Shown: piece after piece, positions 37,368-57,484 of the stretch
Layout of the letters: every line of letters starts with the position of its first letter
Numbering within the stretch: the first letter of the stretch is position 1
DNA from: Epilithonimonas sp. JDS
GTDB lineage: Bacteria; Bacteroidota; Bacteroidia; Flavobacteriales; Weeksellaceae
DNA: 64,000 nucleotides
Direction of reading: 5' to 3'
Assembly: GCF_021261315.1 (NCBI RefSeq)
Contig: NZ_JAJSAX010000001.1
Location: 806,001-870,000 of the forward strand
Program-made: the position numbers and the translations under genes
Notes under the pieces: model-generated
The model's input: only the letters and a program-made list of their open reading frames with translations
Told to the model about the DNA's origin: nothing
Databases searched by the model: none

Positions 37368-37764
37368 GGGGTTGACTGGTTTCGACAGCAAGGTCAATGG
37401 GTAAGTAAGCATGCAGAGAACCGTAGCGCGATCTCTTAAATCCCTTGCTACACACTTTTAACTGGCAACGAAGAGTTCGCTCTTGCAGCTTAATCCGAAG
37501 TTTAGTAGGATCCAGCGCTTTCCCGAAGATAGTAAGGAAGCAAGATGTCTCACAAACGCTCTGTTCTGCGGCGTTTGATCCTGGGGCATAGCAATGCAGA
37601 AATAAGTCCCGAAAAACTTCGGTTCGGGATCGAAAATTTTAGAAGATAAGGTTTAGGTTGGGTGTTTGCTCTCTGCCTGGGCTCGAAAATCAATAGCGAA
37701 ATAAGCATGTAGAAATCTTATGTATTGCTTGTTTGGACGAGGGTTCGAATCCCTCCAACTCCAC
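37368..37764 (+). ncRNA. ssrA: tmRNA (trans-translation RNA)
   Basis: The 5' end GGGGTTGACTGGTTTCGACA and the 3' end GGTTCGAATCCCTCCAACTC form the tRNA-like acceptor (GGGGTTG with CAACTCC, one G-U pair) and T-arm. CCA is not encoded. The tag reading frame ends GCT CTT GCA GCT TAA at 37479-37493; reading back to GGC (37464) gives the tag GNEEFALAA, with the standard ALAA end recognised by ClpXP-type proteases. tmRNA rescues stalled ribosomes. Its 3' end is a frequent integration site for mobile elements, and the accessory island begins right after it. Confidence 0.96.
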
Positions 37765-38463: not shown

Positions 38464-38775
38464 TTAAAAAAAGAAAAAATACTTTTTTCTTTTTTTCTTT
38501 TTCAATGGATTGTCCACAATATTTATGATGGTATCATTTCTTATCCAGTAATGAGACTTACATTTAAAATTCCAGTTTCCAATTGAAGGAAAAAGCGATG
38601 TACTCTCTCCGTCAAAAATTAATTTCCAATCCTTCGGTGAAAGACGAGCTACGACTTTGTTTTTACATCCGCAAGCACATAAATGAAGAGCAACTTTATA
38701 TGGTATGGATATGTATAAAATACCATTCTCAAGTTCTCCCGGAATTTCATCTAAAAATTTATGCTGGAATTTCAT
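38464..38775 (-). CDS. DUF6527-like zinc-site protein of the ubiquitin-like operon
   Basis: A 103-residue protein with Cys/His pairs that look like a zinc site: [13 protein letters not shown] and [12 protein letters not shown]. This spacing matches what I know as DUF6527, a small partner encoded with multi-ubiquitin and ThiF genes. The C-terminus is strongly basic then Phe-rich (KKKKRKK, FFFF). The gene overlaps the ThiF gene by 17 nt, so the two are probably co-translated. Its biochemical job is not known; a role as E2-like or substrate-binding partner is speculation. Confidence 0.72.
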
Positions 38776-39922
38776 CGTGAAAAATTTTTGAGTTTGACAA
38801 GATAAAATGCGATGATTGCTGATTTTTTAAACCGTCGTAGAAGCCACAATGTTGCTTCCACTTAATAACTGCTTGTACTGCATTTAGTGCGTTTAATTCA
38901 GCAATTTGAATGTTGGAGCTGTATGGATTATCTTCTATCTCGATATTATCTGAACCTACTTGTTGCTTATAGCTAATTCTTGTGGCTCCAATAAGTTTTT
39001 CACCCATAACCTCTATTCCGAGACCAACATCAATGAAGTCGACATTTTTCGATAAAAGATATTCGGTTATAAAATTTCTAACATTGTTTCTATCTATACA
39101 TACAAATACAAAATCCATAGCCTCAAGCTTAAATATGTTCAAATCCGAAATTATTTCTGAATGAGGAATTAGTCCGGAATGCATTTTTGAATAAATATTA
39201 AAAAGGTAATCTACTTTTTTTTGTCTGTTATCCAAATCTGAAATACTTGCAGCTCCAGGAGTCCTAAATGCGTTATGCGATTCAAAAACATCATCGTCAT
39301 ACAAGTGTATTTCAGATACACACGTTTTACTCACTAAATCCAAAATGTAGCTACCAGTACCTCCAAGTCCAACAATTGCTATTTTCATATCCAGAAATTT
39401 TTCATTTAAAAAATCGATTTTGGCTCTCGAAGAGTTTGAATCGAAGTATTTAAAAGGTATTTCAGCTTCAGTAATGACTATAGGTCTAGATGTCTTGGCT
39501 GTAACCGTGCCTGTTTCGTCCAATGAAATTGCTTCGTTCGAAATAATTCGAATATAACTCTTGAATTTTTCATGGAAATTTTCAAATGGGATTTGAGGCC
39601 TACTCGAAAATGAAAAATCCGCAATGAAATCATTAGAGAGCACCTGTCTTTCTTGAAGTTCTATACTTTTAATAGGTGTTCCGTCTGCATAACATGGTTT
39701 TTCTCCAACAAAGTACACCACGTGGTCATTAGGCTTAGCGACTGTGTTGGTACTCGGAATCATTTGGAAGGGAGAAAATAAAGTTCCGTATTTAATTTCT
39801 TTATTAAAATTAACGTAAGGAATATGGTGGATACTAATGTATCCACCTTTTATTTCCAATTCGTACCCATCATTAATCAAGGAACGAATGTCAGGGCTAT
39901 GACTTAACTGTTGCAGTAACAT
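38759..39922 (-). CDS. ThiF/E1-like adenylyltransferase
   Basis: A 387-residue protein. The C-terminal two thirds is a ThiF/E1 Rossmann domain: [17 protein letters not shown] (ATP-binding glycine loop, about residues 182-198), [16 protein letters not shown] and [14 protein letters not shown]. This domain adenylates the C-terminus of ubiquitin-like proteins. The N-terminal part (about residues 1-150) is a separate domain of the type found in DUF6791-ThiF proteins. The gene overlaps the ubiquitin-like gene by 26 nt. It probably activates the protein encoded at 39897-40565. I see no JAB-type deubiquitinase in the operon. Confidence 0.85.
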
Positions 39923-40565
39923 AGAAAATCATTTTGTGTTTAACTTTGACAGATTTACCTTTTGTAAGCACTCCTTCTGGTTGAGAGAAGTCACCATTTT
40001 CATATGCAACGGTATATGCTGTATCTGGAGTTTCCATATTATGTCCTGCTGCCTTGATTACTTCAATAAAGGAAATGGTTTGTGTATCCCAATAATGAAT
40101 GGTGCCGTTTATAATGATGTAAGTTTTTTCCTTAGACTTAGAAATGAATTTTTCTTTTCCTTCTCTCGCAAGGTCGACGAATTCATCATCTTCAATCAAG
40201 TCGTCTTCCCAACCTTCAGGATTATCTAAGTACACAATTTGAGTTTCAGGAATGTCTCCGTTTTTACGAATCTCACCACCCTTGATAAACTGCTTATATG
40301 AAATGAAAGTTGTTCCATTAATTGAATATTCCAATTTCTTTTTTACATAGAACTGTTCAATATCTGGTCTTGCTAGATTAACTTTAGTCTCATTTTCAAT
40401 TAGCTCATCTTCATAAGGTGTATCAATTGATAAATATAATTCTGTTGAATACGGAATCGCATTCAAATCTTTAAGTTCTTTTCCAGTTATGTACTGGTTT
40501 GTTGTGGAAAAATCTTTGCCATCGATTCTAAATAGAAGAGGCGGTTTTGTGTTGTCTGTATGCAT
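39897..40565 (-). CDS. Multi-ubiquitin-like protein (three beta-grasp repeats)
   Basis: A 222-residue protein with three ubiquitin-like repeats: about residues 9-74 (FRIDGKDFSTTNQYITGKEL), 77-142 (YSINGTTFISYKQFIKGGEI) and 145-222 (YIIINGTIHYWDTQTISFIE). The first two repeats end alike with VNLARPDIEQF and VDLAREGKEKF. This matches the multiubiquitin family described in bacterial ubiquitin-like conjugation operons. The C-terminus is FYVTATVKS, without a diglycine. It is the first gene of a tightly overlapping operon with ThiF and DUF6527-like genes. Confidence 0.85.
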   Translation of the reverse strand: MHTDNTKPPLLFRIDGKDFSTTNQYITGKELKDLNAIPYSTELYLSIDTPYEDELIENETKVNLARPDIEQFYVKKKLEYSINGTTFISYKQFIKGGEIRKNGDIPETQIVYLDNPEGWEDDLIEDDEFVDLAREGKEKFISKSKEKTYIIINGTIHYWDTQTISFIEVIKAAGHNMETPDTAYTVAYENGDFSQPEGVLTKGKSVKVKHKMIFYVTATVKS

Positions 40566-42122: not shown

Positions 42123-42149
42123 AAAAAAATCCCATTCTCATTAGGATTT
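42123..42149 (-). terminator. Terminator of the minus-strand XRE gene
   Basis: Minus strand AAATCC and GGGATTT form a short stem followed by a run of seven Ts. The hairpin overlaps the stop codon of the gene at 42141. Confidence 0.5.
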
Positions 42150-42449
42150 TCTCTTATTTTGATTTTTCAATTTTTCTTCAAGAAGTTTCGTCTCGCTTGT
42201 CATTGAATCAAGTTGAGACTGACTTATTCTAGAAAACAGTAGAAGTAAATCAATTTCTAAAAAATTGCAGACAGCAATAATAATCTCAATCGTTGGATTG
42301 GTTTTTCCTCTCTCTATTCTACCAATGTAATCTTTAGAAAGATCTATCTCGGTGGCAATTTGAAATTGTGATAGTCCTTTTCTTAACCGATATAGTTTAA
42401 AAACGATTCCGATTTGATGTTTTATTTCTTCCGACTTCCATTTATACAT
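42141..42449 (-). CDS. XRE-family transcriptional regulator
   Basis: A 102-residue protein with a typical HTH: LRKGLSQFQIATEIDLSKDY, then IGRIERGKTNPTIEIIIAVC. The C-terminal tail is charged (EEKLKNQNKRKS). It is encoded divergently from the sigma-dCas12f operon, 304 nt away, and could regulate that operon or itself. A GTAC-centred palindrome lies between them at 42493-42502. Confidence 0.85.
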   Translation of the reverse strand: MYKWKSEEIKHQIGIVFKLYRLRKGLSQFQIATEIDLSKDYIGRIERGKTNPTIEIIIAVCNFLEIDLLLLFSRISQSQLDSMTSETKLLEEKLKNQNKRKS

Positions 42450-42753
42450 TCAGTAAAGTTTATAAATAATTATATTTTTCATAGAGACTTATAGTACGTA
42501 CTGAATAAATATTCTTACATTTGAATAAATTACTTATTAAGGTAATTTTGCGATAGTTTATAGAAATATAGAAGCTATTACTTAGATTTTCGATTGGAAA
42601 ATTGGCACTTTTCAAAGAGCAAATAGTCATAAGTCGAGTAAGGTGTCTTTTTTTTTGCAATATGTAGTAAGATAATGTTTTGATGGTGCGAAGAATCCAT
42701 AGAAAAACCTAAGCAATTCCTTCCAGCAATAATTCAGCTAAAATACACTGCTT
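42450..42753. promoter_or_regulatory. Divergent control region, XRE gene / sigma-dCas12f operon
   Basis: 304 nt without a supported gene. It contains the palindrome AGTACGTACT (42493-42502) and a T9 run near 42649-42657. A partial promoter-like TTTTG near 42680 precedes the sigma gene but lacks a proper TAnn spacing. A 66-codon minus-strand frame (42460-42660) has no recognisable features and I do not call it. Confidence 0.4.
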
Positions 42754-43569
42754 ATGAAAAGAACAGACTCTTTGCCCCGAAAGTTGAGCAATCTTCAGTT
42801 ATACGAACTACTAAAAAAAGGCAACTCGACCGCTCTTGAACACATTCATCTGCGCTACAAAAGACTTCTTTTCTGGGTTGGAAGGCAAGTGCTTGAGGAT
42901 GATTTTGTAGTGGACACTATCGTTCAGGATACATTCCTCAAATTGTGGCTACACCGCGACACCATTGAAACTCCGAATCATATTCTTGGCTTTTTACGGT
43001 TTGTTATGAAAAGAGATTGCATATCTTATGTCACTGCTCCAAGAAATAAATTCAACCGATTGATGGCTTCTCTTGAAAGTTTTGAGAATTATCAGGATTA
43101 TCTAGCAGGTTATGACCCGCTAAAAGATAAAGAGTATCTTCTCAGTCAGGAATCCGATCAGAAAAATTTCGACGAGGTCAAAAAGATTTTACCCATTCTG
43201 GCTCCCAAAAGAAAACACCTGATTGAACTTTGCTTGGAATATGGCTTTCAGCACAAACCAATCGCAGATGCAATGGGAAGCAGTGTGAAAGACATCAGCA
43301 ATGAGTTGAGCAGAGCTATAAATGACCTTCGGAAAATTCTTAATAGAAGTTCTTTTGAACAGCCACAGGAAAAAGATCTCGATAATAAAAAGCAGTCAGA
43401 AAAACTCAGTAGTCAACAACTCAATATTTTGAAAAGAAGGTTTGAGCAGAAATCTTCATTTGCAGTGATTGCCCGAGAACTCAAATTACCTGAAAAGGAA
43501 GTACATCGGGAATTTCTGTATGCATATCAACATTTACAAAATCAAAACACTTCTGAAATACCTCTTTGA
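42754..43569 (+). CDS. ECF-like sigma factor partner of dCas12f
   Basis: A 271-residue sigma-70 family protein. Sigma region 2 covers about residues 14-93 (LYELLKKGNSTALEHIHLRY; DTIVQDTFLKLWLHRD is the core-binding helix). Region 4 covers about 143-196 (LAPKRKHLIELCLEYGF; IADAMGSSVKDISNELSRAI is the HTH). An extra segment at 219-262 (SQQLNILKRRFEQKSSFAVI, RELKLPEKEVHREFLYAY) looks like a second region-4-type HTH, which usual ECF factors (about 180-200 residues) lack. No anti-sigma factor gene is adjacent. The dCas12f gene starts 1 nt after its stop, so the two are co-translated and probably act together: sigma recruits RNA polymerase to sites chosen by the guide RNA. Confidence 0.85.
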   Translation: MKRTDSLPRKLSNLQLYELLKKGNSTALEHIHLRYKRLLFWVGRQVLEDDFVVDTIVQDTFLKLWLHRDTIETPNHILGFLRFVMKRDCISYVTAPRNKFNRLMASLESFENYQDYLAGYDPLKDKEYLLSQESDQKNFDEVKKILPILAPKRKHLIELCLEYGFQHKPIADAMGSSVKDISNELSRAINDLRKILNRSSFEQPQEKDLDNKKQSEKLSSQQLNILKRRFEQKSSFAVIARELKLPEKEVHREFLYAYQHLQNQNTSEIPL

Positions 43570-43570
43570 A

Positions 43571-44665
43571 ATGGAAAAATCCACTATTACACTTACCAGA
43601 AGAATTCAGCTGCTGATCGATCTTCCTGCAAATGAACAAAAAGAAATGTGGGAAAAACTCTACCGGTATCAGAACCGCTGTTTCCGAGCTGCTAATTTTA
43701 TCGTTTCCCATTTGTATGTTCAGGAAATGATCAAGGATTTCTTTTACCTCACAGAAGATGTCCAATACAAACTAGCAGATGTAAACAAAGATGAAATGGG
43801 AATATTCACCCGTTCGAAAACACACACAACTGCACGTATGGTTTTTGATCGCTTCAAAGGAGAAATTCCTACAGATATTCTGGGAAGCCTGAACAATACG
43901 ATTCAATCAACCTTCTCTAAAACTAAAGCCGACTATTGGCAGGGAACAAAATCATTGCGAAACTTTAAGAAAGATATCCCAATTCCACTTCCTGTTAAAT
44001 GTATCAGTAAAATGAGGTATGATCCAGAAAAGAAAGCATTTTGTTTCAATATGTTTGCTATTCCTGTTAAAACGTATTTAGGGAGAGACTTCTCTGATAA
44101 GCGAGTGATAATGGAACGCCTCTTAAAAGAAGAGATAAAGCTTTGCACATCACAGATCCAGCTGAAAGCCGGGAAAATCTTTTGGCTTGCAGTGTTTGAA
44201 TTTGAAAAGGAGGAACACGCTTTACAACCCGAAATCATTGCCGAAGCTTCTCTGTCTCTGGAACATCCTATAGTAGCAAAAGCCAACAATGTGCGAATCA
44301 ATATTGGCTCGAAAGAAGAGTTTTTATACCGCAGGTTGGCGATTCAGGCAAGTCAAAAAAGGATTCAAGCGGGCGTAGCATATGCCCGTTCCGGAAATGG
44401 AACCAAACGGAAACAAAAGGCATTGTATAAAACAGAAAATCTGGAAAGCCGTTATGTAAGCCATCGGCTTCATTTGTATAGCAGAAAGCTAATTGATTTC
44501 TGTATCCAACAGAAGGCAGGTACACTTATTCTTAAAAATCAGGAAGACAAAATAGGAATTGCAAAAGAACAGGAATTTGTGCTGCGCAACTGGAGTTATT
44601 ATGAATTGCAGACCAAAATAAAATATAAAGCGGAAAAGGCTGGCATCGAATTGATCATTGGATAG
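43571..44665 (+). CDS. Nuclease-dead Cas12f/TnpB-family RNA-guided protein
   Basis: A 364-residue protein (start ATG 43571, 1 nt after the sigma stop; an ATG at 43469 lies inside the sigma gene). Residues 1-230 match the TnpB/Cas12f recognition half, with SLRNFKKDIPIPLP at 128-141. The RuvC part is recognisable but inactive: the usual GIDLG reads RINIG (N244 for Asp), the usual VEDL reads LKNQ (K322 for Glu), and after NWSYYELQTKIKYKAEKAG the protein stops (LIIG), so the third RuvC Asp and the CxxC zinc ribbon are gone. It should bind guide RNA and DNA without cutting. No TnpA transposase gene is nearby. Together with the sigma gene this fits RNA-guided transcription. Confidence 0.88.
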   Translation: MEKSTITLTRRIQLLIDLPANEQKEMWEKLYRYQNRCFRAANFIVSHLYVQEMIKDFFYLTEDVQYKLADVNKDEMGIFTRSKTHTTARMVFDRFKGEIPTDILGSLNNTIQSTFSKTKADYWQGTKSLRNFKKDIPIPLPVKCISKMRYDPEKKAFCFNMFAIPVKTYLGRDFSDKRVIMERLLKEEIKLCTSQIQLKAGKIFWLAVFEFEKEEHALQPEIIAEASLSLEHPIVAKANNVRINIGSKEEFLYRRLAIQASQKRIQAGVAYARSGNGTKRKQKALYKTENLESRYVSHRLHLYSRKLIDFCIQQKAGTLILKNQEDKIGIAKEQEFVLRNWSYYELQTKIKYKAEKAGIELIIG

Positions 44666-44670
44666 CTAAA

Positions 44671-44766
44671 AAAATAACGAGGGGTGCTTGTAAACCCGCA
44701 GGGTGAGGTCACGAACACTCACTAAGTACTCAATAGTATATACAACGGCGTGGGCTTCTTTTTTTC
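44671..44766 (+). ncRNA. Candidate guide RNA of the sigma-dCas12f system
   Basis: The non-coding stretch right after the dCas12f stop is GC-richer than its surroundings and can fold: GGGT/ACCC (44682-44697) or ACCC-GCA-GGGT (44694-44704), GTGAG/CTCAC (44703-44722) and GTACT-CAAT-AGTAT (44726-44739). It then reads ATACAACGGCGTGGGCTTC and a T7 run (44759-44765). The ACAAC before GGCG resembles the end of Cas12f repeats, so the guide may be the 12 or more nt from 44747. TnpB/Cas12f scaffolds often overlap the 3' end of the protein gene, so the 5' end may lie inside it. Guide boundary and target are unresolved. Confidence 0.55.
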
Positions 44767-45677: not shown

Positions 45678-48600
45678 TTAATAATTTGTATTAGAATAAT
45701 TTATTCCTTGTATTACCATTTCATTATCCTTTGGATCATCACCATAGGAGTCCAGTCCTCCGACTGGAGATCCGTACTTATACCAATTTCCAATCTGATT
45801 TATTCCCGCACCCGCTTTAAGACCTACATCACTTAATCCAAATGCCTTACCTGCAACACCATAATTAAAATTGCCAAAATCATCCGATCTTAATAACTGT
45901 CCATCAAAAAATGCGTAACTGTTATAAAAGTTAGTATTTTCTTTATTTTCATATGTTCCAGTATAGAATGGGGTATTTATATTCCTCTTTAAATCAAATA
46001 CTTTATTATTGCCAACCTTTGACGCAAAAAATTTTAATCTATCCTTTAATTTTCCTATATCTCCACCACCAATTTTACTTTCTCTTGCGTCAAATTCACT
46101 GTCCCATTGTGAAAAATAGGCATTCGTCTTTGCTAGTTGAAGTTTAAAATCATTCGTTTTATCCGGTATTTGATTTTTTTGTCCTATATATGTATCAACA
46201 TTTTTACTAACTCCCATTTGATTTTGATGAGTTCTTATATAAACTTTTCCATCCTTTTTGCCATCATTAAACTCATGTTTCCCCGTAAGACTATTATAAT
46301 AATCGCCAGGCGGTTTGCCACCACCCACTTGTTTCTGTAACCTTCTAAATGCTTCTTGCGCTTCCAGTCCCTTATAAGTTTCATTTAGTGTTTCTACTGA
46401 TCTACCATCTGGGTCAATGTTAATGATTGGATTATTTACTGCGTAGTTGTAAGGTGACCATCTGGTATATTTTTCTGCAAGTGGATCCACCACACCCCAT
46501 CTTGCGATGTCCGGCATATAAAATCTTGCGCCATAATCATACATTCCGGTTTCCTGTAGTTCTTTACCGTTGTACTTGTAATTTTTATACGTAGCACTCG
46601 GGTTATAAACCTGAGCTGCACCACCTTTAGATATTGGATTGATAAAGTTTAGCCCAAAAGGATAATAATCATTTCCGTTTTCTGCAATTAATTGTCCATT
46701 TTCATTTCTTCCGTAGCTGAGTCTCGTATTACCTAAATGATCTCTATACTGGTAAATATATTTAAAATTATCATAGTCATAAAATCCTTCTGCGGTTGGG
46801 AAAAAGTTAGGTGTTGATTCCGTTTTTAAAACAGGTTCAGGATTTGCGACAATTGGCTTATCTTCTAATTCAAAAGCTTCTTTCTGTCCGGCAGTAGACA
46901 TCTCCTCAGCTGCGGCACTTGCAGTAAGCGCTTCTTGCAATCTAAGTGTATATGGTGTAGTATAAACAAAACCATCTAAATAGTCTGTGTGAATATTTTG
47001 TCCGTTTACTTCAAACAATTTATGAATTTTGGCTCCATCCGCTCTGTAAGAATATGTAACAGGCTGACCGTTTTTAATCACAACTTGAGGAAGATTCAAA
47101 AAGTTATATACAATAGGAGTAGTGATATTTTTATCTGGCATTGTCAGCAAGTTTCCATTAGCGTCATAAGTATTAATACCACCACCTCCAGGATAGCCGC
47201 TTGGATTATTAGCGGGAAAACCTTCATTATCAGTAATTCTCTGGAGTCTGTTACTTAATGCATTATTGTCATAATAATATATCAAATTATCAACTTGTGT
47301 TGCTGTTAGCCCTGTTTGAGGTCTGGCGTTTCGTTTTAATGTTTTTATATTTCCATTTAGGTCATAGCTCAATTCTTCATTAAAATATTCTGAATCGGAA
47401 GTGGTTGACCCATTCAATGATTTAAAATTAGCTTTTAACAATCTATTAAGCTGATCATAATTATATTCGTATCTGTTTATAGCATTAGAACCATAAGTCC
47501 AATCCATTTCAGCAATATTTCCATTATAGTTCTTTATATAAATATTATCAGGATTATTATATTTCAACTTATAAGAGAAAAGTTTTGTTGTATCCAGATT
47601 ACCAGACGGATTAAGATTAATTCCGGTTATCCATCCACGAATATTATAACTATACTTAATTGTCTGGAGCGCAGGTGAAACCAGTCCAAAACTTGAGTTA
47701 GAAACAGCACCTACACTTTTAGTGTCAAGTCTTCCTAAGTCATCATAAACATTTTCTGTTAAAAGTTCTTTTTCTGTTTTGCTTACTACTTCATGAAAAT
47801 GTTTTTTTAATCTATTTTGATGATCGTAAGTAAAATCTTCTAAAATTTGAACTGGGTTTTCACTTGAAATTCTGTTATGAAGAGTCTCAGCCTGTTGAAC
47901 AACTCCTGCGAAATCCAATTTTGAATTAGCAATTGTGCTTCCTCCGAGATGATTTATGCTTGTAGACCCAATCGATCGTCCCTTGGAATCAAAAAAAGTG
48001 AAATTTTTAGTCCAACTGTCATCATCAATATTCTTTACAAATGATGCCAAGGGAAATGATTTCACAGAACGCCCTAAAGAATTATAAGCATCAGTGAGGA
48101 TAGGTTCGAGTAGTATTTTATTATCATCTGGAAATGGTGTGTCGGGTGGATAAGTATCGTAATAGTTAACTGATAGATAGGTTTCCATACCGACGAAATA
48201 CGTTCTGTTATAATAAATTTGTAATCCATTCTGTAGATAGCCTGTTCCGTCCCTTTCTTCAGTAATTACCATATCCTTAAGTAGATTTTGTGCCTGTTCT
48301 CTATTACCGTAAGGGTGAAAACCAGTACAAAGAACCCTGCCAAATCTATCATATTTGGTGATAAGCCATTTGCCTTGAATTGCCAGATCTGTATCTTGTG
48401 ACATTACAAGCCTATCGCTTTTATCATACACCAAAAATTCCCATCCCTTCCCTGGGAGTTTTTTCTCTGCCAGTCTGGATTTCCCATCATACCTGTATTG
48501 ATAACATAGATTATCTAAAATATCATTTTGAATAACACCAGGATCATTAATCGTCTGGGTCGAGTTGTTCCTAAATTCTCGACTAGCTAATGGGGGGATA

Positions 48601-49382
48601 ACAAATGAAAGTTGATTATATTCGTTATAAACATAATATGTGTCCAGATACTCTGCCTGTGGAAGTGGGCGGTCTTGTTGTTGAACAACGTTTACTTCGT
48701 TTCCAAGAACCTTCCTTACCATTAACAATTGACCTTTCCCATTTTTAAATTCATAAGTAGTACCTCCATCTTCATCAGCGACTCTATTCTTATAAAGCTT
48801 TGAGGAAGCATAAAACCCATCTACCTTTAGTTGGCTGATATAGAATATGCCTTTATCTGGAAATGATGTTGCCGTAAATTTAAGAATATCGGTACTTGAA
48901 TTAATTTGGTATTTAAAATCAACAGGATGACTTTGCCAATCAGCTCCAGGTTGAATCTGCTTCTCAATTCTATCAAGAGGTGAACTCTCCAGAATCTTCT
49001 CGGCATAAGCTCTTGCTCCATAGAAGTTTGATCCGCTAGTCTCTGTAATACCAGACTGGAAGGCTTGGTTTGATGTTGCTATTGGTATTGGCAATACATC
49101 AATTCTCTGTCTTCCGTAATCATCATAAACAAAAGGGGTCACAAGATCAAATGAAGACGTTCCGCCACCTTTAATAGCTATGCTCTGTTTCGGCCTCCCC
49201 AGACCATCAAAGTAAGTTACTGCTTCGATGCCCTTTGCTGTACTGCTTGATGTTGTCACAGGCTCTAAATAAGTTTTGCTGTAAACAAAATTTTGCGCTT
49301 GACTAAGCTGGCACTTATAAAATCCAACGGTCATTAATAAGACAGCCAAATATATAGATTTGTAGTATTTTAAGTTTATCAT
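45678..49382 (-). CDS. RHS-repeat polymorphic toxin with C-terminal toxin domain
   Basis: A 1234-residue secreted protein. After a signal region (residues about 1-30) comes a DUF6443-type N-terminal domain (GIEAVTYFDGLGRPKQSIA). RHS/YD repeats follow (YDQLNRLL, YDLNGNIK, YDANGNLL), then the RHS-associated core (GKELQETGMYDYGARFYMPD, YNYAVNNPIINIDPDGRS, ending near residue 996). The last ~238 residues are a separate tip; DLKRNINTPFYTGTY and FGNFNYGVAGKAFGLSDVG resemble what I know as polymorphic toxin type 44 (Ntox44). The RHS shell should encapsulate the toxin. Export through T9SS is plausible from context, but no sorting domain is present here. Confidence 0.85.
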   Translation of the reverse strand: MINLKYYKSIYLAVLLMTVGFYKCQLSQAQNFVYSKTYLEPVTTSSSTAKGIEAVTYFDGLGRPKQSIAIKGGGTSSFDLVTPFVYDDYGRQRIDVLPIPIATSNQAFQSGITETSGSNFYGARAYAEKILESSPLDRIEKQIQPGADWQSHPVDFKYQINSSTDILKFTATSFPDKGIFYISQLKVDGFYASSKLYKNRVADEDGGTTYEFKNGKGQLLMVRKVLGNEVNVVQQQDRPLPQAEYLDTYYVYNEYNQLSFVIPPLASREFRNNSTQTINDPGVIQNDILDNLCYQYRYDGKSRLAEKKLPGKGWEFLVYDKSDRLVMSQDTDLAIQGKWLITKYDRFGRVLCTGFHPYGNREQAQNLLKDMVITEERDGTGYLQNGLQIYYNRTYFVGMETYLSVNYYDTYPPDTPFPDDNKILLEPILTDAYNSLGRSVKSFPLASFVKNIDDDSWTKNFTFFDSKGRSIGSTSINHLGGSTIANSKLDFAGVVQQAETLHNRISSENPVQILEDFTYDHQNRLKKHFHEVVSKTEKELLTENVYDDLGRLDTKSVGAVSNSSFGLVSPALQTIKYSYNIRGWITGINLNPSGNLDTTKLFSYKLKYNNPDNIYIKNYNGNIAEMDWTYGSNAINRYEYNYDQLNRLLKANFKSLNGSTTSDSEYFNEELSYDLNGNIKTLKRNARPQTGLTATQVDNLIYYYDNNALSNRLQRITDNEGFPANNPSGYPGGGGINTYDANGNLLTMPDKNITTPIVYNFLNLPQVVIKNGQPVTYSYRADGAKIHKLFEVNGQNIHTDYLDGFVYTTPYTLRLQEALTASAAAEEMSTAGQKEAFELEDKPIVANPEPVLKTESTPNFFPTAEGFYDYDNFKYIYQYRDHLGNTRLSYGRNENGQLIAENGNDYYPFGLNFINPISKGGAAQVYNPSATYKNYKYNGKELQETGMYDYGARFYMPDIARWGVVDPLAEKYTRWSPYNYAVNNPIINIDPDGRSVETLNETYKGLEAQEAFRRLQKQVGGGKPPGDYYNSLTGKHEFNDGKKDGKVYIRTHQNQMGVSKNVDTYIGQKNQIPDKTNDFKLQLAKTNAYFSQWDSEFDARESKIGGGDIGKLKDRLKFFASKVGNNKVFDLKRNINTPFYTGTYENKENTNFYNSYAFFDGQLLRSDDFGNFNYGVAGKAFGLSDVGLKAGAGINQIGNWYKYGSPVGGLDSYGDDPKDNEMVIQGINYSNTNY

Positions 49383-49416
49383 CGGTTTAGTAGTTTTCTA
49401 TGTATTATTAACATTA

Positions 49417-52400
49417 TTATATTGGATAATTGAACCTAAATACTATATGTGCTCCTGCATTAAGGGTTCCTGACAGTAACGTCATCTTACAACTTCCATT
49501 GGTTTCAATACGAACATGCCAACTACGACCTCCCTCAGAAGTGTCAAATTCTCTAATTCCAATAGGTGAACATGAGGTACCAACTGTTCCGATAATGATT
49601 CCACTACTCCAACTTTGTCCATACATTGGAGGGGCTTGAAATGACAGTTCAAATTGCACTATATTATTACTTACCGTAGTATTACTATAACTATATGATG
49701 GAGTGCCTACAACCGCCGAAAAAGTGAATGGACATGTTGTGACAGCTATACAAGACCCATTTTGATTTGTCACATTCTGACCATTCAGTGCAATATCATC
49801 TAAAGCTTTCTGATCGGCAGCAAGTTTACTGATGGTTGAAGAATAAGTATTAGCCGGAACAACATAATTGTAAGTTCCAGGTTGAGATCCAGAACCACAA
49901 TTGGTTCTAGTAAAAGTCTTACTTTTCTCTTCATTATAAAAGATGACAGATGGATCGTGCTGGTAATTATATTTGAATTCTTTAAGAATGTTCCCATTAA
50001 CATCAACAATCATTTCCAATCTGTTGGTTGTATCATACTTGTAATATTGAGTAATTCCAGAGGGAGGAGTCATACTCCTAACGCCTATTAACGGATCATA
50101 ACTGTAAGTACTTATTTTATACTTTGACAATAACGGATTTGTTCTAAATGCATTTAGTTTTGTGAGTAATTCCGTTTCTGTTTGTTGTGCTGTTTTATTA
50201 TTGGCTACAGGATCAGCATCATAATTTGAATATGATGTTATTTCGTTTGCAGTAGATCCTAATTCAGAATAGCTGGCGCCTTCAATTTTGGCAATAGGTT
50301 TTGTGTTATTATATCCCCAGACAACTGCGGTGGTAAGATTAGCTTTAGTAGTATATTGTTGTAGATTACCACTTGTATCGTATTGATTATAAGTGACCTC
50401 CGTAGTAGGTGTTGGATTCTGATTGTTTACATCATAAAGATCAATTTGGTTATACGATAGAACGGAAGTTGGCAACACTTTGTTGGATGTTAAAGCGTTT
50501 TTACTGTACACAATTTTAGTTTTTGACTGAGTTTTACCATTTTCAATCACTTCCGTTTCTAATGGAACAGTTACTAAGTTAGCTGCCAATAAATTAGCAT
50601 CACCAACTTCAGCCGCATACTTATAATTAGTTTCAGAAGTGCTAGAGTCCGGGAATAGCGTTGACTGCTTACTTACTAAATATCTATTATTGTAGGTATT
50701 ATAATTTTTGGTTTCTAAATATGCTGCTGATCCCGCTGGAAAATATTCCCTTGTTGTAGTATAGTCGAGCAAGGATTTATATAAATTAATACTGTAGGTA
50801 TGGATAAGTCCTGGCAAAGTTGCTCCATTATTATAATTGAATACGAATCCAAAGCTTGAAAGAGGTTCCAAAATCGAACCTGCAATGAAATATGTATTTA
50901 AATTGTCACTGTAATTATTTTTGTATTTAAAAGAAATTTCCTTGATAATCTTACTGCTATTATCATAAGTTATCTGCTTGATAAGATCTCCATCTCCAAT
51001 AAGTAAAGATGCTCCTTTCTGAACCATCATTAAACAAGATATCGAATAATCATTAGTAAAATAACTTTCTGTTCTGCCTTTATCAACAACTTGCTCAATT
51101 ACCTTTGTGTAGCCTACGTGATTGCCCTGCGGCAGAGTGGAATTTCCGAGACTTGATGCGCCTTCGTAAACAGATATCTTAAATGGATATGTATTTGGTG
51201 ACTGAGGTGTATTCCAATTCATAGCACAGCCTGAATTCAATCCGATCGTTTGAGTAACAGCTTCATAAGCATAACACCTATTTTCAATTTCAAAAAACTT
51301 TGGGAATTGTGCTAAATTTCCGTTAGATGTAATTTTTGTGCCATTATTTGTAACTTCATCATAGATGTAATTTTTAACAATTGGTGTTGCTCCAACTTTT
51401 TCAGTAGTAGTGATACTTTTAATTCTTATACCACCTCCTGAACTGTAATTATATTCCACACCGTCAATGATACTTTTTTCATTGACATACTTTACTACAG
51501 ATGAATTAGATGACGCATTACTTCCTCCAGACACTAATATATTTCCAGCTGTAAAGTCATTATTATATGCTGTTCCAAGTTCATAATTCCCAGTTTGTAG
51601 AATAACATCGTCTACTACATTTGTAGTGGTATAAGATCCTATATTAGGATTATATATTTTTTTAATAATTTCGCCAGTAGCCTTGTTCTTGATATATACC
51701 CAATATGAATTTTTGACCTGATCACTTCCGGATGTAAAGTAGAAGTCAAAGTAAGCAAAAATATTTACTCTGATATTACTTCCATTTACACTAAAATCAC
51801 TGGGGTTTTCTGTATGAACTAGACTTCCATTTATTCTATTGACAAGATGATTGGCATTGGCTTCGTGTTTTGTATTATCTTTTACCAATGACTGCATTGG
51901 AAAATTGGAAAATGTATTTGGCTCATAATCATATAGTGTTTTACCACCTGTGGGATAGTTAATAGCAGTGAGCATTCCCGCCAAAGAATATAATGATGTC
52001 CTTCTGTCTGATAGATAATGCTTCCCGTCCGATGAATAATTAAAATATCCTTGAGTAAGACTATTGGGATCAAATGATTGAGGAGGTGCATCTGCGTGAT
52101 ACCAGTATCCTGTCAAATCTTTGTTAAAGGAATTAACATTAAAAATAGTCTGTCCCTTAATGTATTTTTCAGGATCTGGTATAAAAGTATCACTGTTATT
52201 TTGCCCGTTATAATATCCCCAAAAATCTGATGAGAAGCTTAGTTTATTTGGCAAGTTATATGTTGTGTTGTATTCGAAAGAATATTTTTCATTGGTGACA
52301 GACTCTGTTACGCTTAGTAAGCGTAATCGATGTGTAAATACATTATTGTTTGTTAAGCCCAACCATTGTTTCATTGTACTTGTGTCCAGATTATCTGTGG

Positions 52401-53538
52401 CAATAAAATAATCATAATTGAAATCATATTGCTTAATGAGTTTGTATTTATTATAAATTTTAATCGAAGATAATTTTTTGGAATTATTAATATCGTCCCT
52501 TGAAGTCCAATTGAATTCTACCTTCCCATCGGTAAACTCTATTCTCTCAAGATAACTTTCGCCTGTTTGTTGCTTACTACAATCCGTTACCCCTTTAATG
52601 TTCATACTCCCCTGATAATAGTTATGTGGATCTGTCAGATAAGTTCTAGTAGTTTTACAGCCTGTAAGCCTTGGATTGTTTATTGGAATGGATGAATAAA
52701 AATCAATTTTATTCCCCTTTGTATCTTCTATTTTAGATAGAATCCTAGACGAACCATTAATGGTATTCCAGCCTGCCACATTTGTTGTTATTTCTTCTCT
52801 ATCAAAAGAATATTTAAGTCCGTTCTCATCGGTTATCGAAAAATTATTACCTCCTGTAGCGGAAGTTCCATTGATAAGTTTAAAATCAATATTAGGTTGT
52901 TCTGCAATTGCAAATTTAATTTCTCCATTCGGTTTTATCGTTTTTGCCATATCCAAATAGGCTTTATAGCTTTTACCCGGAAGATTAATCAAGAAAAGAT
53001 CTGGTTGATAGTCATCATTGATGGAAGTATATCCATTAGAATTAGTAGGATAAAAAATACCAGTATAAAATGCAGATGAATATGTGCTGGTATTCCAAGG
53101 CAAAGTTATACATGAGGACATACTTTGCATCCCTGTAGCATTTCGCGGGTAGATATTGCGATAACCATTTAAACTAAAATCGTTTATTCCTGAAACAATA
53201 TGAGATACTCTTCCCCCAGCATTCAGTGACCAACCAAGCCCGACAGATGATGCTTCGTCATTGACTTTAATTCCACCTGCGTGATAAGAAATTGAGATCG
53301 GAACTTCTATATCTCCTTCTTTTATAGTGTAAATAGGAATACTTATATTTGGGACACCTGTATATAATGATACAGGTGTCTCTGTATATCTAAATAATGC
53401 TGCTGCATCAGGAGATTTTGGAGCAACACTATTAACTGAATTTTGAATTAAACCTCCAGGATTTGTCTGACCACTAATTATTATTATTAATAAACTAAAT
53501 AATAAACTAAATAATAAACTTGTAATTTTCTTTCTCAT
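49417..53538 (-). CDS. Large RHS-like surface protein, partner of the toxin
   Basis: A 1373-residue secreted protein with signal peptide (ITSLLFSLLFSLLIIIISG). The N-terminal domain (TPVSLYTGVPNISIPIYTIK, ISISYHAGGIKVNDEASSVG) is the SpvB/TcdB-like start common to Bacteroidota RHS partner proteins. YD-like units occur late (YKYDTTNRLEMIVDVNGNIL). Towards the C-terminus a DUF5977-like unit is seen (YVVPANTYSSTISKLAADQK, NGQNVTNQNGSC). It lies between the T9SS protein and the RHS toxin genes with gaps of 4 and 34 nt, so the three are one operon. Probable role: carrier or shell component of the toxin complex. Confidence 0.8.
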   Translation of the reverse strand: MRKKITSLLFSLLFSLLIIIISGQTNPGGLIQNSVNSVAPKSPDAAALFRYTETPVSLYTGVPNISIPIYTIKEGDIEVPISISYHAGGIKVNDEASSVGLGWSLNAGGRVSHIVSGINDFSLNGYRNIYPRNATGMQSMSSCITLPWNTSTYSSAFYTGIFYPTNSNGYTSINDDYQPDLFLINLPGKSYKAYLDMAKTIKPNGEIKFAIAEQPNIDFKLINGTSATGGNNFSITDENGLKYSFDREEITTNVAGWNTINGSSRILSKIEDTKGNKIDFYSSIPINNPRLTGCKTTRTYLTDPHNYYQGSMNIKGVTDCSKQQTGESYLERIEFTDGKVEFNWTSRDDINNSKKLSSIKIYNKYKLIKQYDFNYDYFIATDNLDTSTMKQWLGLTNNNVFTHRLRLLSVTESVTNEKYSFEYNTTYNLPNKLSFSSDFWGYYNGQNNSDTFIPDPEKYIKGQTIFNVNSFNKDLTGYWYHADAPPQSFDPNSLTQGYFNYSSDGKHYLSDRRTSLYSLAGMLTAINYPTGGKTLYDYEPNTFSNFPMQSLVKDNTKHEANANHLVNRINGSLVHTENPSDFSVNGSNIRVNIFAYFDFYFTSGSDQVKNSYWVYIKNKATGEIIKKIYNPNIGSYTTTNVVDDVILQTGNYELGTAYNNDFTAGNILVSGGSNASSNSSVVKYVNEKSIIDGVEYNYSSGGGIRIKSITTTEKVGATPIVKNYIYDEVTNNGTKITSNGNLAQFPKFFEIENRCYAYEAVTQTIGLNSGCAMNWNTPQSPNTYPFKISVYEGASSLGNSTLPQGNHVGYTKVIEQVVDKGRTESYFTNDYSISCLMMVQKGASLLIGDGDLIKQITYDNSSKIIKEISFKYKNNYSDNLNTYFIAGSILEPLSSFGFVFNYNNGATLPGLIHTYSINLYKSLLDYTTTREYFPAGSAAYLETKNYNTYNNRYLVSKQSTLFPDSSTSETNYKYAAEVGDANLLAANLVTVPLETEVIENGKTQSKTKIVYSKNALTSNKVLPTSVLSYNQIDLYDVNNQNPTPTTEVTYNQYDTSGNLQQYTTKANLTTAVVWGYNNTKPIAKIEGASYSELGSTANEITSYSNYDADPVANNKTAQQTETELLTKLNAFRTNPLLSKYKISTYSYDPLIGVRSMTPPSGITQYYKYDTTNRLEMIVDVNGNILKEFKYNYQHDPSVIFYNEEKSKTFTRTNCGSGSQPGTYNYVVPANTYSSTISKLAADQKALDDIALNGQNVTNQNGSCIAVTTCPFTFSAVVGTPSYSYSNTTVSNNIVQFELSFQAPPMYGQSWSSGIIIGTVGTSCSPIGIREFDTSEGGRSWHVRIETNGSCKMTLLSGTLNAGAHIVFRFNYPI

Positions 53539-53542
53539 TGTG

Positions 53543-55258
53543 TTATTCTTTCACGATTTTAGTTGATAAGTTTTTGTCCTGTTGGTTTGGGATGTTGGCT
53601 TTGATGATGTAAATACCCTGCGGCAGCCTACCCGTATTTATCTTCGTCACCTTGTTCTTTGTCTGCAGCTTCTGAATGATTTTCCCTGTCATATCATAAA
53701 GATAAATGTCAGCTTGGTCGAAGTCCAGCCCTATCTCTACATAACAGTAATCCCTTACCGGATTAGGATAGATCTGAATATCCTTATTTTCGATTAGGTT
53801 CTCCACATCAGAGTCAAGAAGTTTCACAATCTTCCAATTCTCTTTCCCTAACTCCTCTGCACTCGTTCCTGCCAAAACATACGATCCGTCTCTGTTCAAA
53901 ATTGCTGACACGAGTCTTTCTTCATTCTTCTTTTCCTTTCCTTCAACATATTTCCTCCAAACTTCTTTACCATTTTTGTCGATATACAACATCCAAAAAG
54001 TCTCATCATTTTCCTGAACCTTTCCTTCACTTTGGGTATAGCCACCAATCAGAAAGCCTTTCGTTTCTGAATCGGAGTTTCTGATTGCATTTAGACTCAT
54101 CAATACATCCCTGTTTTTAAAGTTGTACGATTTCTGCCATTCTTCATTCCCATCCTGATCCAAAGACAATAGCCAAAGGTCTGTACCTTTCTCAAGTTTC
54201 GCGCTTTTGTTACCCGAAGTCTGGGATCGGCTTTCGCCTCCGATAATGTATCCGGTCTCAGTCAATGCCATTGTTCTGATATGGTCATCTTCACTGCCTC
54301 CGAAGTTTTTCTCCCATTGGACAGCGCCATTCTTATCTAATTTTACTATCCAATAATCGCCTTCTCCGTAATTTCCATAGGCTTTTCCATAGAAATTAAT
54401 ATCGTAGGATTCGGTGGCGCTCTGATTATTTGAATTTGAGTTTGAATTATTGGCAGATGATGAAGATTGGGAATTTGAGTTTGATGATGAATTGTTATTT
54501 GTTGTGCCTGTATTTTGAGATAACAGATCCTTAGAATTGATCTTCGATTTGGCTTGCCCTTCACTAACACCACTTCTGGAATAGATGCCCATCAATACAC
54601 CGCCATCATTGGTTGGGATGACTTTCTCCACTTCATCCAAACCTTTTCCACCCAAGATCAATTGATTGAGGATCTTTCCTGTTTTATCAAGCTTCACAAC
54701 CATCACATCTTTGGACCCATAACCAAGTTTAGGATGATTGGTGCTACCAACAACTACAAAACCTTTATCCATAGTTTGAGTAACAGATCTTGCCTCTTCT
54801 GAATATCGTGTCCCAATGGTTTTCTGCCACTCTTCTTCACCATTTTCATCCACCTTGATGATCCACATATCGGATGAGCCGCTGGACTTATCTTTCTTAT
54901 CAATTGCTAAAGATGAATATGAGGTTCCCGCCAATAAAAAACCACCTTCTTGCGTGGAGACGGTGGAACTTAGATAATCGTGCTGGTTGCCGGAGAAATA
55001 TTTTTCCCAAACTTTTTGACCCTGCTGGTCTAATTTTAAAATATGATAATCGTAACCTTTATTTTGATTGCTACCCGCTGTGGGATTTTGATTTTTTTGA
55101 ATAGATGATCCCGAAACAAGGAATTGCCCATCAACCGTAACTGCTAAACCAGAAAGAAAATCCTGCGCTCCGTATTCTACATTTTTCTGCCAACTTACCT
55201 TTTGGGCATAAGAGTAACTTAGGATCAGTATCCCCAAGCTTATATAGAGTTTTTTCAT
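53543..55258 (-). CDS. T9SS-secreted beta-propeller-like protein
   Basis: A 571-residue protein with signal peptide (LYISLGILILSYSYAQ). It has about eight repeats of the form W-(Q/E)-K-x-F/I-G...GGFLLAGTS-like (WEKYFSGNQHDYLSSTVST, WQKTIGTRYSEEARSV, WEKNFGGSEDDHIRTMALTE), which fit a beta-propeller. A Ser/Asn/Gln-rich low-complexity stretch (about residues 250-280) interrupts it. The C-terminus is a type A T9SS sorting domain (QIYPNPVRDYCYVEIG ending LSTKIVKE). It heads the RHS operon and may place the toxin complex at the surface. Confidence 0.83.
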   Translation of the reverse strand: MKKLYISLGILILSYSYAQKVSWQKNVEYGAQDFLSGLAVTVDGQFLVSGSSIQKNQNPTAGSNQNKGYDYHILKLDQQGQKVWEKYFSGNQHDYLSSTVSTQEGGFLLAGTSYSSLAIDKKDKSSGSSDMWIIKVDENGEEEWQKTIGTRYSEEARSVTQTMDKGFVVVGSTNHPKLGYGSKDVMVVKLDKTGKILNQLILGGKGLDEVEKVIPTNDGGVLMGIYSRSGVSEGQAKSKINSKDLLSQNTGTTNNNSSSNSNSQSSSSANNSNSNSNNQSATESYDINFYGKAYGNYGEGDYWIVKLDKNGAVQWEKNFGGSEDDHIRTMALTETGYIIGGESRSQTSGNKSAKLEKGTDLWLLSLDQDGNEEWQKSYNFKNRDVLMSLNAIRNSDSETKGFLIGGYTQSEGKVQENDETFWMLYIDKNGKEVWRKYVEGKEKKNEERLVSAILNRDGSYVLAGTSAEELGKENWKIVKLLDSDVENLIENKDIQIYPNPVRDYCYVEIGLDFDQADIYLYDMTGKIIQKLQTKNKVTKINTGRLPQGIYIIKANIPNQQDKNLSTKIVKE

Positions 55259-56347: not shown

Positions 56348-57484
56348 TTATCGTCTTAATTTCCGCTTCTTTTTCCAGAGTTCATCTTCATCCTGAGAAA
56401 CATAGGTTGGTTTAAGGAAGTCTCCTAATAATCTACCTGCAATCTCTATTAAACTTTCATTTGTTTCTGATTTCAGATGATTATTTACAATATTTTGACT
56501 TACTGATTTTAGCATATCACCAAAATCAGAATCTATTGCCTGAAGAGAAAACCCGACATTTTTCCGAAAAAAGAATCCGTTTTTGTGTTGATTGCTATCA
56601 ACTTTATTTATCCATATATCTTTAATTTGATTTTTTTGACCAGCTTTAAATTCTCCATTATATTGAATCTTTACAGAAAATCCTTTCTGTTGTAAATTTT
56701 CCTGAAATACCTTTAAGTTGTCAGTATTTCTTTGTACTTCCATAACCGCTTTTTTAACTTCAAACAGAGATTTTATCTCAGAAATTTTCAATTGATTTGA
56801 GATTTCAGATAATTTGTAACCAGCTTTATAAATCCTTTCTGTATGAAAATTTTTGTCTTTTTCCATCACAATCCGCATTCCCGATATCCCGTCTTTGACA
56901 TTTGAAGACAATTGAATTTCAAAACCTCTTTTCTTCATTGCTACGATCAGATCATCAAAATTATCTTCTGACCTAATAACTTCGATTAAGCTTTTCAGCA
57001 TTTCGTCTTTTTTCTGAATTCCAATTTCAACATCAGTTAATAATCCTTTTTCTTTGCAGACTTGTCTGACAGCTTCTCCAAATCTTCTTCCGATATCGTG
57101 TGCTTTCACAGTGCACTTTCCAGAAATATCAATTCTGTTGACAACAAAATGAATATGCTTATGTTTCGTACTATTGTGAATATCCAATCGGTATTGATTT
57201 TTGTTTGTCACACCAACTTCTACAAGAGCTTCTAATGCAATTTGTTTTAATTCTTCATCCTTCAATTTTCTACCGATTTCGTCTGGTTGAGAAATATAGC
57301 CAGTCAATGCCCATTTCTTTACTTTAGGATTTCGAACAGCGACAGTTTTCATCTCGTTAAATTGACCTTCTGCTATTTCACTCAATAGATAATTTGAAGT
57401 TACCATTTCTGCTGTTCCTTTATCGTTTCCATTGTATTCTAAAGCAATTTTTGTTATCGCTCTTGTGGTTGCCGAATTATTCAT
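56348..57484 (-). CDS. Relaxase (MobA-like, MOBP-type)
   Basis: A 378-residue mobilisation nuclease. The metal-binding histidine motif is STKHKHIHFVVNRIDISGK, i.e. H-x-H-x3-N, near residues 110-120, and the candidate catalytic Tyr is in MVTSNYLLSE near residue 32. The segment VKAHDIGRRFGEAVRQVCKE follows as in Bacteroidota MobA proteins. It should nick the transfer origin and lead the DNA strand into a conjugation channel supplied by another element. It overlaps the MobC-like gene by 8 nt. Confidence 0.88.
   Translation of the reverse strand: MNNSATTRAITKIALEYNGNDKGTAEMVTSNYLLSEIAEGQFNEMKTVAVRNPKVKKWALTGYISQPDEIGRKLKDEELKQIALEALVEVGVTNKNQYRLDIHNSTKHKHIHFVVNRIDISGKCTVKAHDIGRRFGEAVRQVCKEKGLLTDVEIGIQKKDEMLKSLIEVIRSEDNFDDLIVAMKKRGFEIQLSSNVKDGISGMRIVMEKDKNFHTERIYKAGYKLSEISNQLKISEIKSLFEVKKAVMEVQRNTDNLKVFQENLQQKGFSVKIQYNGEFKAGQKNQIKDIWINKVDSNQHKNGFFFRKNVGFSLQAIDSDFGDMLKSVSQNIVNNHLKSETNESLIEIAGRLLGDFLKPTYVSQDEDELWKKKRKLRR

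Follow-up and report, generated by a model that had tools for sequence, protein, structure and literature searches.

A sigma factor and a nuclease-dead Cas12f on a predicted mobilisable element of Epilithonimonas, with a guide RNA that may aim them at a leader attenuator

Introduction

The closest described counterpart of the locus reported here is the dCas12f-sigmaE system of PDB entries 9n9c, 9n9m, 9n9o and 9n9q (the last of which presumably also holds RNA polymerase), in which the genes of a sigma factor and a dead Cas12f are likewise adjacent and the guide RNA (gRNA) lies beside dCas12f, as in our locus. Sigma-E/dCas12f pairs of Bacteroidota reportedly have a minimal G as target-adjacent motif, and transcription in the known system is said to start about 46 bases from that motif. 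To our knowledge, what dCas12f-sigma systems target in nature, and to what end, is an open question; a search of the literature available to us returned no paper on such pairs.

Two further groups of proteins are related. TldR proteins usually have no sigma partner. The TldR of flagellin-remodelling prophages is also a nuclease-dead TnpB-family protein with a guide RNA on mobile DNA, and it is aimed at a host surface-protein gene, as we predict here for SusC-SusD; it represses, however, and the term "sigma factor" has no occurrence in the text of the article (PMC13418256), whereas our dCas12f has a sigma gene one base upstream. The Cas12f/TnpB nucleases of PDB entries 9nzo, 9nzr, 9nzq and 8hr5 are homologous to our dCas12f (E 1e-38 to 2e-16); 9nzo and 9nzr keep the RuvC-I Asp, the RuvC-II Glu and a longer C-terminus, all three of which our protein lacks.

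The locus lies in a 64,000-nucleotide stretch of the genome of Epilithonimonas sp. JDS (hereafter the window). Judged from its sequence, it adds one more member to the known dCas12f-sigma kind, with RNA-guided transcription as its predicted function. The first-pass annotation had proposed this kind, and the homology to 9n9q, the gene order, the dead RuvC and the downstream gRNA all fit. Both proteins are homologous to the known pair over nearly their full length, and the truncated dCas12f proteins are near-equal in length (364 and 365 aa). The window locus differs in its predicted integrative element at the tmRNA gene and its clade-wide guide; it may differ also in the tandem gRNAs of some of its relatives and in its predicted targets, which are an attenuator-like leader and the relatives' own operon. 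The system being known, it is the shared guide, the leader targets and the mobile setting that are worth following.

The sigma factor and dCas12f

The operon encodes two proteins:

42754..43569, + strand: ECF-type sigma factor, 271 aa, carrying regions 2 and 4 and, towards the C-terminus, a second region-4-like match
43571..44665, + strand: nuclease-dead Cas12f (dCas12f), 364 aa, with S227 and K322 and its C-terminus missing

Both genes are intact and lie on the same strand; the TGA stop of sigma (43567-43569) and the ATG of dCas12f (43571) are one nucleotide apart, as first annotated. Sigma regions 2 and 4 had been read in the first protein, and Pfam agrees, with Sigma70_r2 (E 1.3e-5), Sigma70_r4_2 at residues 141-189 (E 5.7e-7) and Sigma70_r4 at residues 217-252 (E 6.4e-8), all above gathering scores. 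A search against known sigma-E/dCas12f proteins, which the first-pass annotation had suggested as a check, matches both proteins to chains of 9n9q: residues 17-262 of sigma match chain C, "RpoE" (E 1.7e-80), and residues 1-364 of dCas12f are covered by the "Nuclease-deactivated Cas12f" of 9n9c (E 4.1e-161), the same sequence being present in 9n9q. The domain collections give sub-threshold matches for dCas12f, namely a Cas12f1-like family as the sole Pfam match, and guided_TnpB of NCBIfam at E 1.9e-15 (57 bits, against a cut-off of 100).

Aligned to the 506-aa Cas12f of 9nzo, dCas12f has S227 in place of the RuvC-I Asp and K322 in place of the RuvC-II Glu. The alignment stops at 9nzo residue 414, and so the last ~90 residues are missing, a stretch that in Cas12f nucleases carries the zinc finger and the third of the acidic residues. 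The earlier reading of a Cas12f/TnpB homologue with no intact RuvC is thus borne out. One scan of genome contigs yielded 58 related loci, mostly from Chryseobacterium and its neighbours, of which 55 share 83-95% identity over their best segment. Among the 56 relatives translated, the 50 of 364 aa have neither D at 227 nor E at 322. Against the window copy, dCas12f has a median dN/dS of 0.067 over 49 comparisons and sigma one of 0.147 over 35, the comparisons in each set being non-independent; the dN/dS and residue comparisons leave out L051, L058 and L059 as well as loci whose length differs. Both values indicate purifying selection, and dCas12f is therefore not a decayed nuclease.

A divergent regulator gene precedes the operon:

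42141..42449, - strand: HTH_3 (XRE-type) regulator

A small divergent ORF occupies its place in 36 of 55 loci; it is XRE-type-like in several of them, and its sequence family changes from locus to locus.

The guide RNA

Downstream of dCas12f lie two predicted RNA segments:

44679..44746, + strand: guide-RNA scaffold, ending ATATACAAC, with two hairpins in the consensus fold and a third in the single-sequence fold
44747..44764, + strand: predicted guide GGCGTGGGCTTCTTTTTT, its 5' register uncertain by one base and its 3' end not fixed

The scaffold, GAGGGTGCTTGTACACCC...CACTCACTAAATACT...AGTATATACAAC, was modelled from 54 of 59 alignment rows (L004, L005, L006, L022 and L026 were dropped). All 64 sources match the model (54 of them had served to train it), and so do all 22 Flavobacteriaceae loci, which played no part in training and five of which are also among the 64. 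It is this conservation that makes the structured RNA-like segment noted by the first annotators real; the scaffold shows a weak covariation signal, in 1 of its 12 pairs, and the folding energy of the gRNA is no better than that of shuffles (z 0.10). Rfam returned no relevant family at the gRNA, and a scaffold search of the rest of the genome found no further gRNA below E 8.

The locus had been expected to be a member "with its own guide". This expectation did not hold, as the guide is nearly invariant: 57 of the 63 gRNAs of the first (family) set begin GGCGTGGG, which matches a conserved leader. Beyond the T-run, by eye, the sequence differs between gRNAs, unlike this common start. Guides of Flavobacteriaceae are more varied, with 11 of 31 gRNAs beginning GCGTGGG or GGCGTGGG, nine having GCGTG followed by other bases, and 11 having neither and no GCGTG within the first seven bases. 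Scaffolds stand in tandem in several loci (four in L232, three each in L018, L027 and L233, two each in L230, L231 and L277), and L270 has an additional scaffold immediately upstream of dCas12f.

Some gRNAs depart from this pattern. Another guide class, GCGTGAGT(G/A)AA..., recurs in L273, L274 and L051 and in a single guide of L232, and a search for target leaders of this class found none. The guides of L269, L270, L275, L276 and L233 are unrelated to GCGTGGG, with CCTTCCC common to L275 and L233. In L026 (7107-7217) the scaffold can be followed intact as far as the third hairpin, after which comes unrelated sequence that includes the guide region, with about 200 bases of contig left, as if this were the end point of a rearrangement.

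The leader RNA

When the window's own genome was searched with the guide, two sites turned up, each about 435 bp ahead of one of two paralogous SusC genes, and from these we arrived at a leader RNA that also precedes the sigma gene:

42516..42523, + strand: TACATTTG, sigma-A type -7 box (TAnnTTTG), predicted promoter of the operon
42533..42617, + strand: 5' part of the leader RNA, kept (nhmmer, 64.4 bits)
42629..42756, + strand: 3' part of the leader and start of sigma (nhmmer)

The region before the window sigma gene and that before a susC target are identical at 90 of 118 aligned positions. The window copy lacks model positions 102-182 by nhmmer, about 80 positions that form the hairpin with the guide target, and reaches just 16.9 bits with the covariance model (E 0.078); this remnant is the sole match of the leader model within the window. 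By a tolerant pattern, the leader stands before the sigma gene in 42 of the 58 related loci, and its fold has 32 pairs, of which 11 are changed on both sides (35 of 44 sequences used, after L003, L005, L006, L013, L015, L038, L042, L052 and L054 were dropped from the alignment). Much of the apical hairpin is lost in L042 and L054, and six of the 22 Flavobacteriaceae loci have no leader match. The box TANNTTTG (TAnnTTTG) occurs in the 50 bases upstream of the leader in 40 of the 40 regions (of 52) in which the leader 5' hairpin was found. PMC9723704 gives TAnnTTTG as the -7 box consensus and reports 64 structured 5' regions for F. psychrophilum.

In the genus, the leader model has 58 matches in 21 of 23 genomes, of which 12 are at the sigma-dCas12f operon. 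Forty-two of the 46 others were examined, four weak ones being left out, and 19 of the 42 are directly followed by a SusC homologue (blastp to the own SusC); several more precede ORFs with secretion-signal-like starts (by eye). The system itself is present in 11 of the 23 genomes, with 15 dCas12f matches (one partial) beside 15 scaffold matches. Ten of the 21 leader-bearing genomes are without dCas12f, so the leaders must have another primary role, and the element looks like a general cis-regulatory leader. The window's own genome has three copies, two of them before SusC-SusD genes, the identity of which rests on Pfam for L156 and, for L157, on 82% identity to SusC and inspection by eye. Rfam gave no match inside the leader at E up to 1 in eight leader loci (two listed matches lay outside the leaders), and a literature search on the leader RNA found nothing.

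Correspondence of guide and leader

The guide corresponds to the 3' strand of the apical hairpin of the leader. The sequence GGCGTGGGYYNY occurs at 10 places in the window's own genome, the guide and nine others. Six of the nine lie inside mechanical ORFs; the three intergenic sites are exactly the three leader-model matches, and each of them is followed by a gene on that strand. Counted by hand, the guide is identical to the two susC leaders at 14 and 13 of 18 positions and to the third leader at 12 of 18, and pairing is imperfect past the first 8-10 bases. In one register the base before the target is G (G, then GCGTGGG) at all three leaders; in the other register it is A.

Of 55 related loci, 27 have their longest guide match anywhere in the locus within the leader of the operon itself, where it is unique and 8-12 nt long (the coding strand was required; L026 was excluded, as were L051 and L058, which lack upstream sequence). 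In the other 28 the best match lies outside the operon's own leader, and three of these (L007, L011 and L042) have a 7-nt top match on the opposite strand of the leader. Matches in Flavobacteriaceae are longer, 16 of 16 in L267 and 15 of 16 in L229, L263, L265 and L266, with G preceding.

The pairing of individual guides with individual leaders is loose. Over 16 loci, own and swapped leaders do not differ significantly, either in the length of the matching prefix (7.0 vs 6.56; 2132 of 10000 shuffles reach it) or in matches of 16 (11.25 vs 10.74; 705 of 10000 shuffles), and guides of other genomes often fit a leader as well or better. Because guides fit swapped leaders nearly as well, the guide seems adapted to the leaders as a family rather than to any single one. 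The same result could also be read as a sign that the true targets lie elsewhere, on phages, plasmids or other elements, and that the match to the leader reflects shared ancestry or conservation of the leader and the gRNA tail; the leaders in genomes without dCas12f and the mobile setting are in keeping with this. Given the matches of 16 and 15 of 16 bases in five Flavobacteriaceae loci, and intergenic seed sites in the own genome that are leaders only (the guide aside), we consider such an explanation quite unlikely, and retain the leader family as the predicted target.

Genome-wide counts of approximate guide matches in the window's own genome are as follows. With up to three mismatches over 16 nt there is no excess over the reversed control (20+16 vs 20+18 sites), and over 12 nt with one mismatch there are 28 sites against 18 in the control. 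None of these 28 sites looked by eye like a tRNA T-arm, which had been considered as a target. In genome G365, the leader L252 stands before a SusC-like gene (by eye) and contains GCGTGACAT, with which one of the four G365 guides begins; this guide matches the leader over 9 nt, guides of other genomes over at most 6. In L233, which has no leader match, the upstream DNA and the guides share GCCTTCCC (3 differences in 16), and one other site in the locus is as close to the guide.

Attenuator layout and proposed mechanism

The target strand has two alternative pairing partners, the 5' hairpin arm and AGTTCCACGCC, which lies some 64-75 bases downstream (15 leaders listed). Duplexes of the target strand with this 3' arm average -18.3 kcal/mol in own combinations and -16.1 kcal/mol in swapped ones (sd 0.22, 0 of 5000 swaps), as computed from 58 distinct pairs with relatedness not removed, and in 69 of 75 leaders a TTTT comes after the 3' arm, as compared with 229 of 1575 background windows (the weak extra match L253b was dropped from the swap test and from the TTTT and two-fold comparisons). 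Two exclusive folds lie within 2 kcal/mol of each other in three of the eight leaders folded (L156, L241 and L246). In the other five the terminator form is less stable by 4 to 23 kcal/mol: by 4-6 in L236 and L252, and by 8-23 in L235, L157 (-35.7 vs -46.3) and L227 (-35.5 vs -58.8, with poor placement of the arms). By its sequence, the two-fold leader with its T-run has the layout of a transcription attenuator.

In the mechanism that we propose, the guide RNA would direct dCas12f to the switching strand of the attenuator leader (G, then GCGTGGGYTC...), and the sigma factor would bring RNA polymerase to the dCas12f-bound leader. Transcription would start a few dozen bases downstream of the target on the same strand. 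A start at about 46 bases, as is reported for the known system, would fall between both terminator arms, so that the transcript could not form the terminator: it would be without the 5' arm, and the attenuator would be bypassed. For the window's own genome this predicts three targets, the leaders of two SusC-SusD operons and a third leader. The same leader stands before the sigma-dCas12f operon of many relatives, where it may create a positive feedback. The window copy has lost the target along with the missing ~80 positions, and its operon should therefore escape both the attenuator and the feedback.

The position of the target allows an opposite outcome, in which the complex sits on the leader about 130 bp past a housekeeping-type promoter, stops elongation and represses SusC-SusD (and, in relatives, itself). 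In L128 a promoter-like TAnnTTTG box indeed precedes the target, and TldR, as a nuclease-dead TnpB relative on mobile DNA, is described as an RNA-guided repressor (PMC13418256). A plain repressor would need no sigma, however, and here sigma is encoded with dCas12f and both match one solved entry; we find such a road-block unlikely. The guide also copies the leader strand that is able to pair with the 3' arm, and one might speculate that the 3' end of the gRNA acts as an RNA-level antiterminator, pairing with AGTTCCACGCC and preventing the terminator with no DNA target. This we hold to be very unlikely, since a dedicated dCas12f-sigma pair would then be superfluous and, where the coding strand and the complement of the 3' arm differ (GGGC vs GGAAC), guides by eye follow the coding strand. 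We think it reasonably likely, then, that a dCas12f-sigma system on a mobilisable element starts transcription inside a leader attenuator and so bypasses it.

Mobile element and distribution

The sigma-dCas12f operon is, from the sequence features below, cargo of an integrative mobilisable element of about 27.5 kb at the tmRNA gene, with predicted ends:

37368..37764, + strand: tmRNA gene, its 3' end being the predicted left end of the element
56348..57484, - strand: MobA/VirD2-type relaxase of the element (PF03432, E 7.2e-21)

A copy of the tmRNA end was sought in the window and 60 kb beyond; the right end is a copy of the last 24 tmRNA bases with 3 differences, just outside the window (G000:C1:871240-871263), and it is adjoined by a tyrosine integrase gene (C1:869872-871110; PF00589, E 2.3e-12). 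A Toprim protein and a VapE-like protein are also encoded in the element.

Two other operons of the element are of interest in their own right. At its left end (38464-40565, - strand), genes for Multiubiquitin, ThiF with DUF6791, and DUF6527 make up a bacterial ubiquitin-like operon. An operon that we label Rhs-like (45678-55258, - strand) has three genes on one strand, encoding a T9SS-sorted protein, a protein of 1373 aa with DUF5977 and one of 1234 aa with DUF6443 and an Ntox44 C-terminus; no leader was seen by eye upstream of 55258.

Twenty-three of 395 genomes match in an order-wide sample and 18 of 397 in a Flavobacteriaceae sample, five of the 18 being already in the order-wide sample. 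By eye, a mobile-looking gene cluster lies within 6 kb of the system in 24 of 59 loci. The patchy spread and the several copies per genome are consistent with mobility. Five very similar loci (L002-L006) stand beside a metal-transport-like cluster (by eye) in five Chryseobacterium genomes, and their likeness suggests recent transfer.

Biological significance

A broader interpretation is possible, and we put it forward tentatively, as somewhat doubtful: the clade-wide guide may aim a mobile start factor at a whole family of attenuators, turning on SusC-SusD along with, in roughly half the relatives, the operon that encodes it, so that the system would be self-reinforcing and could work in any host that bears the leader. 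In two bacterial families one can name from sequence the guide, the strand it targets, the genes that follow and a possible feedback loop, which makes the question of the purpose of dCas12f-sigma systems directly testable. If the proposal is true, RNA-guided transcription would be joined to transcription attenuation, and a mobile element would rewire the outer-membrane receptors of its host, as an activating counterpart of the TldR prophages.
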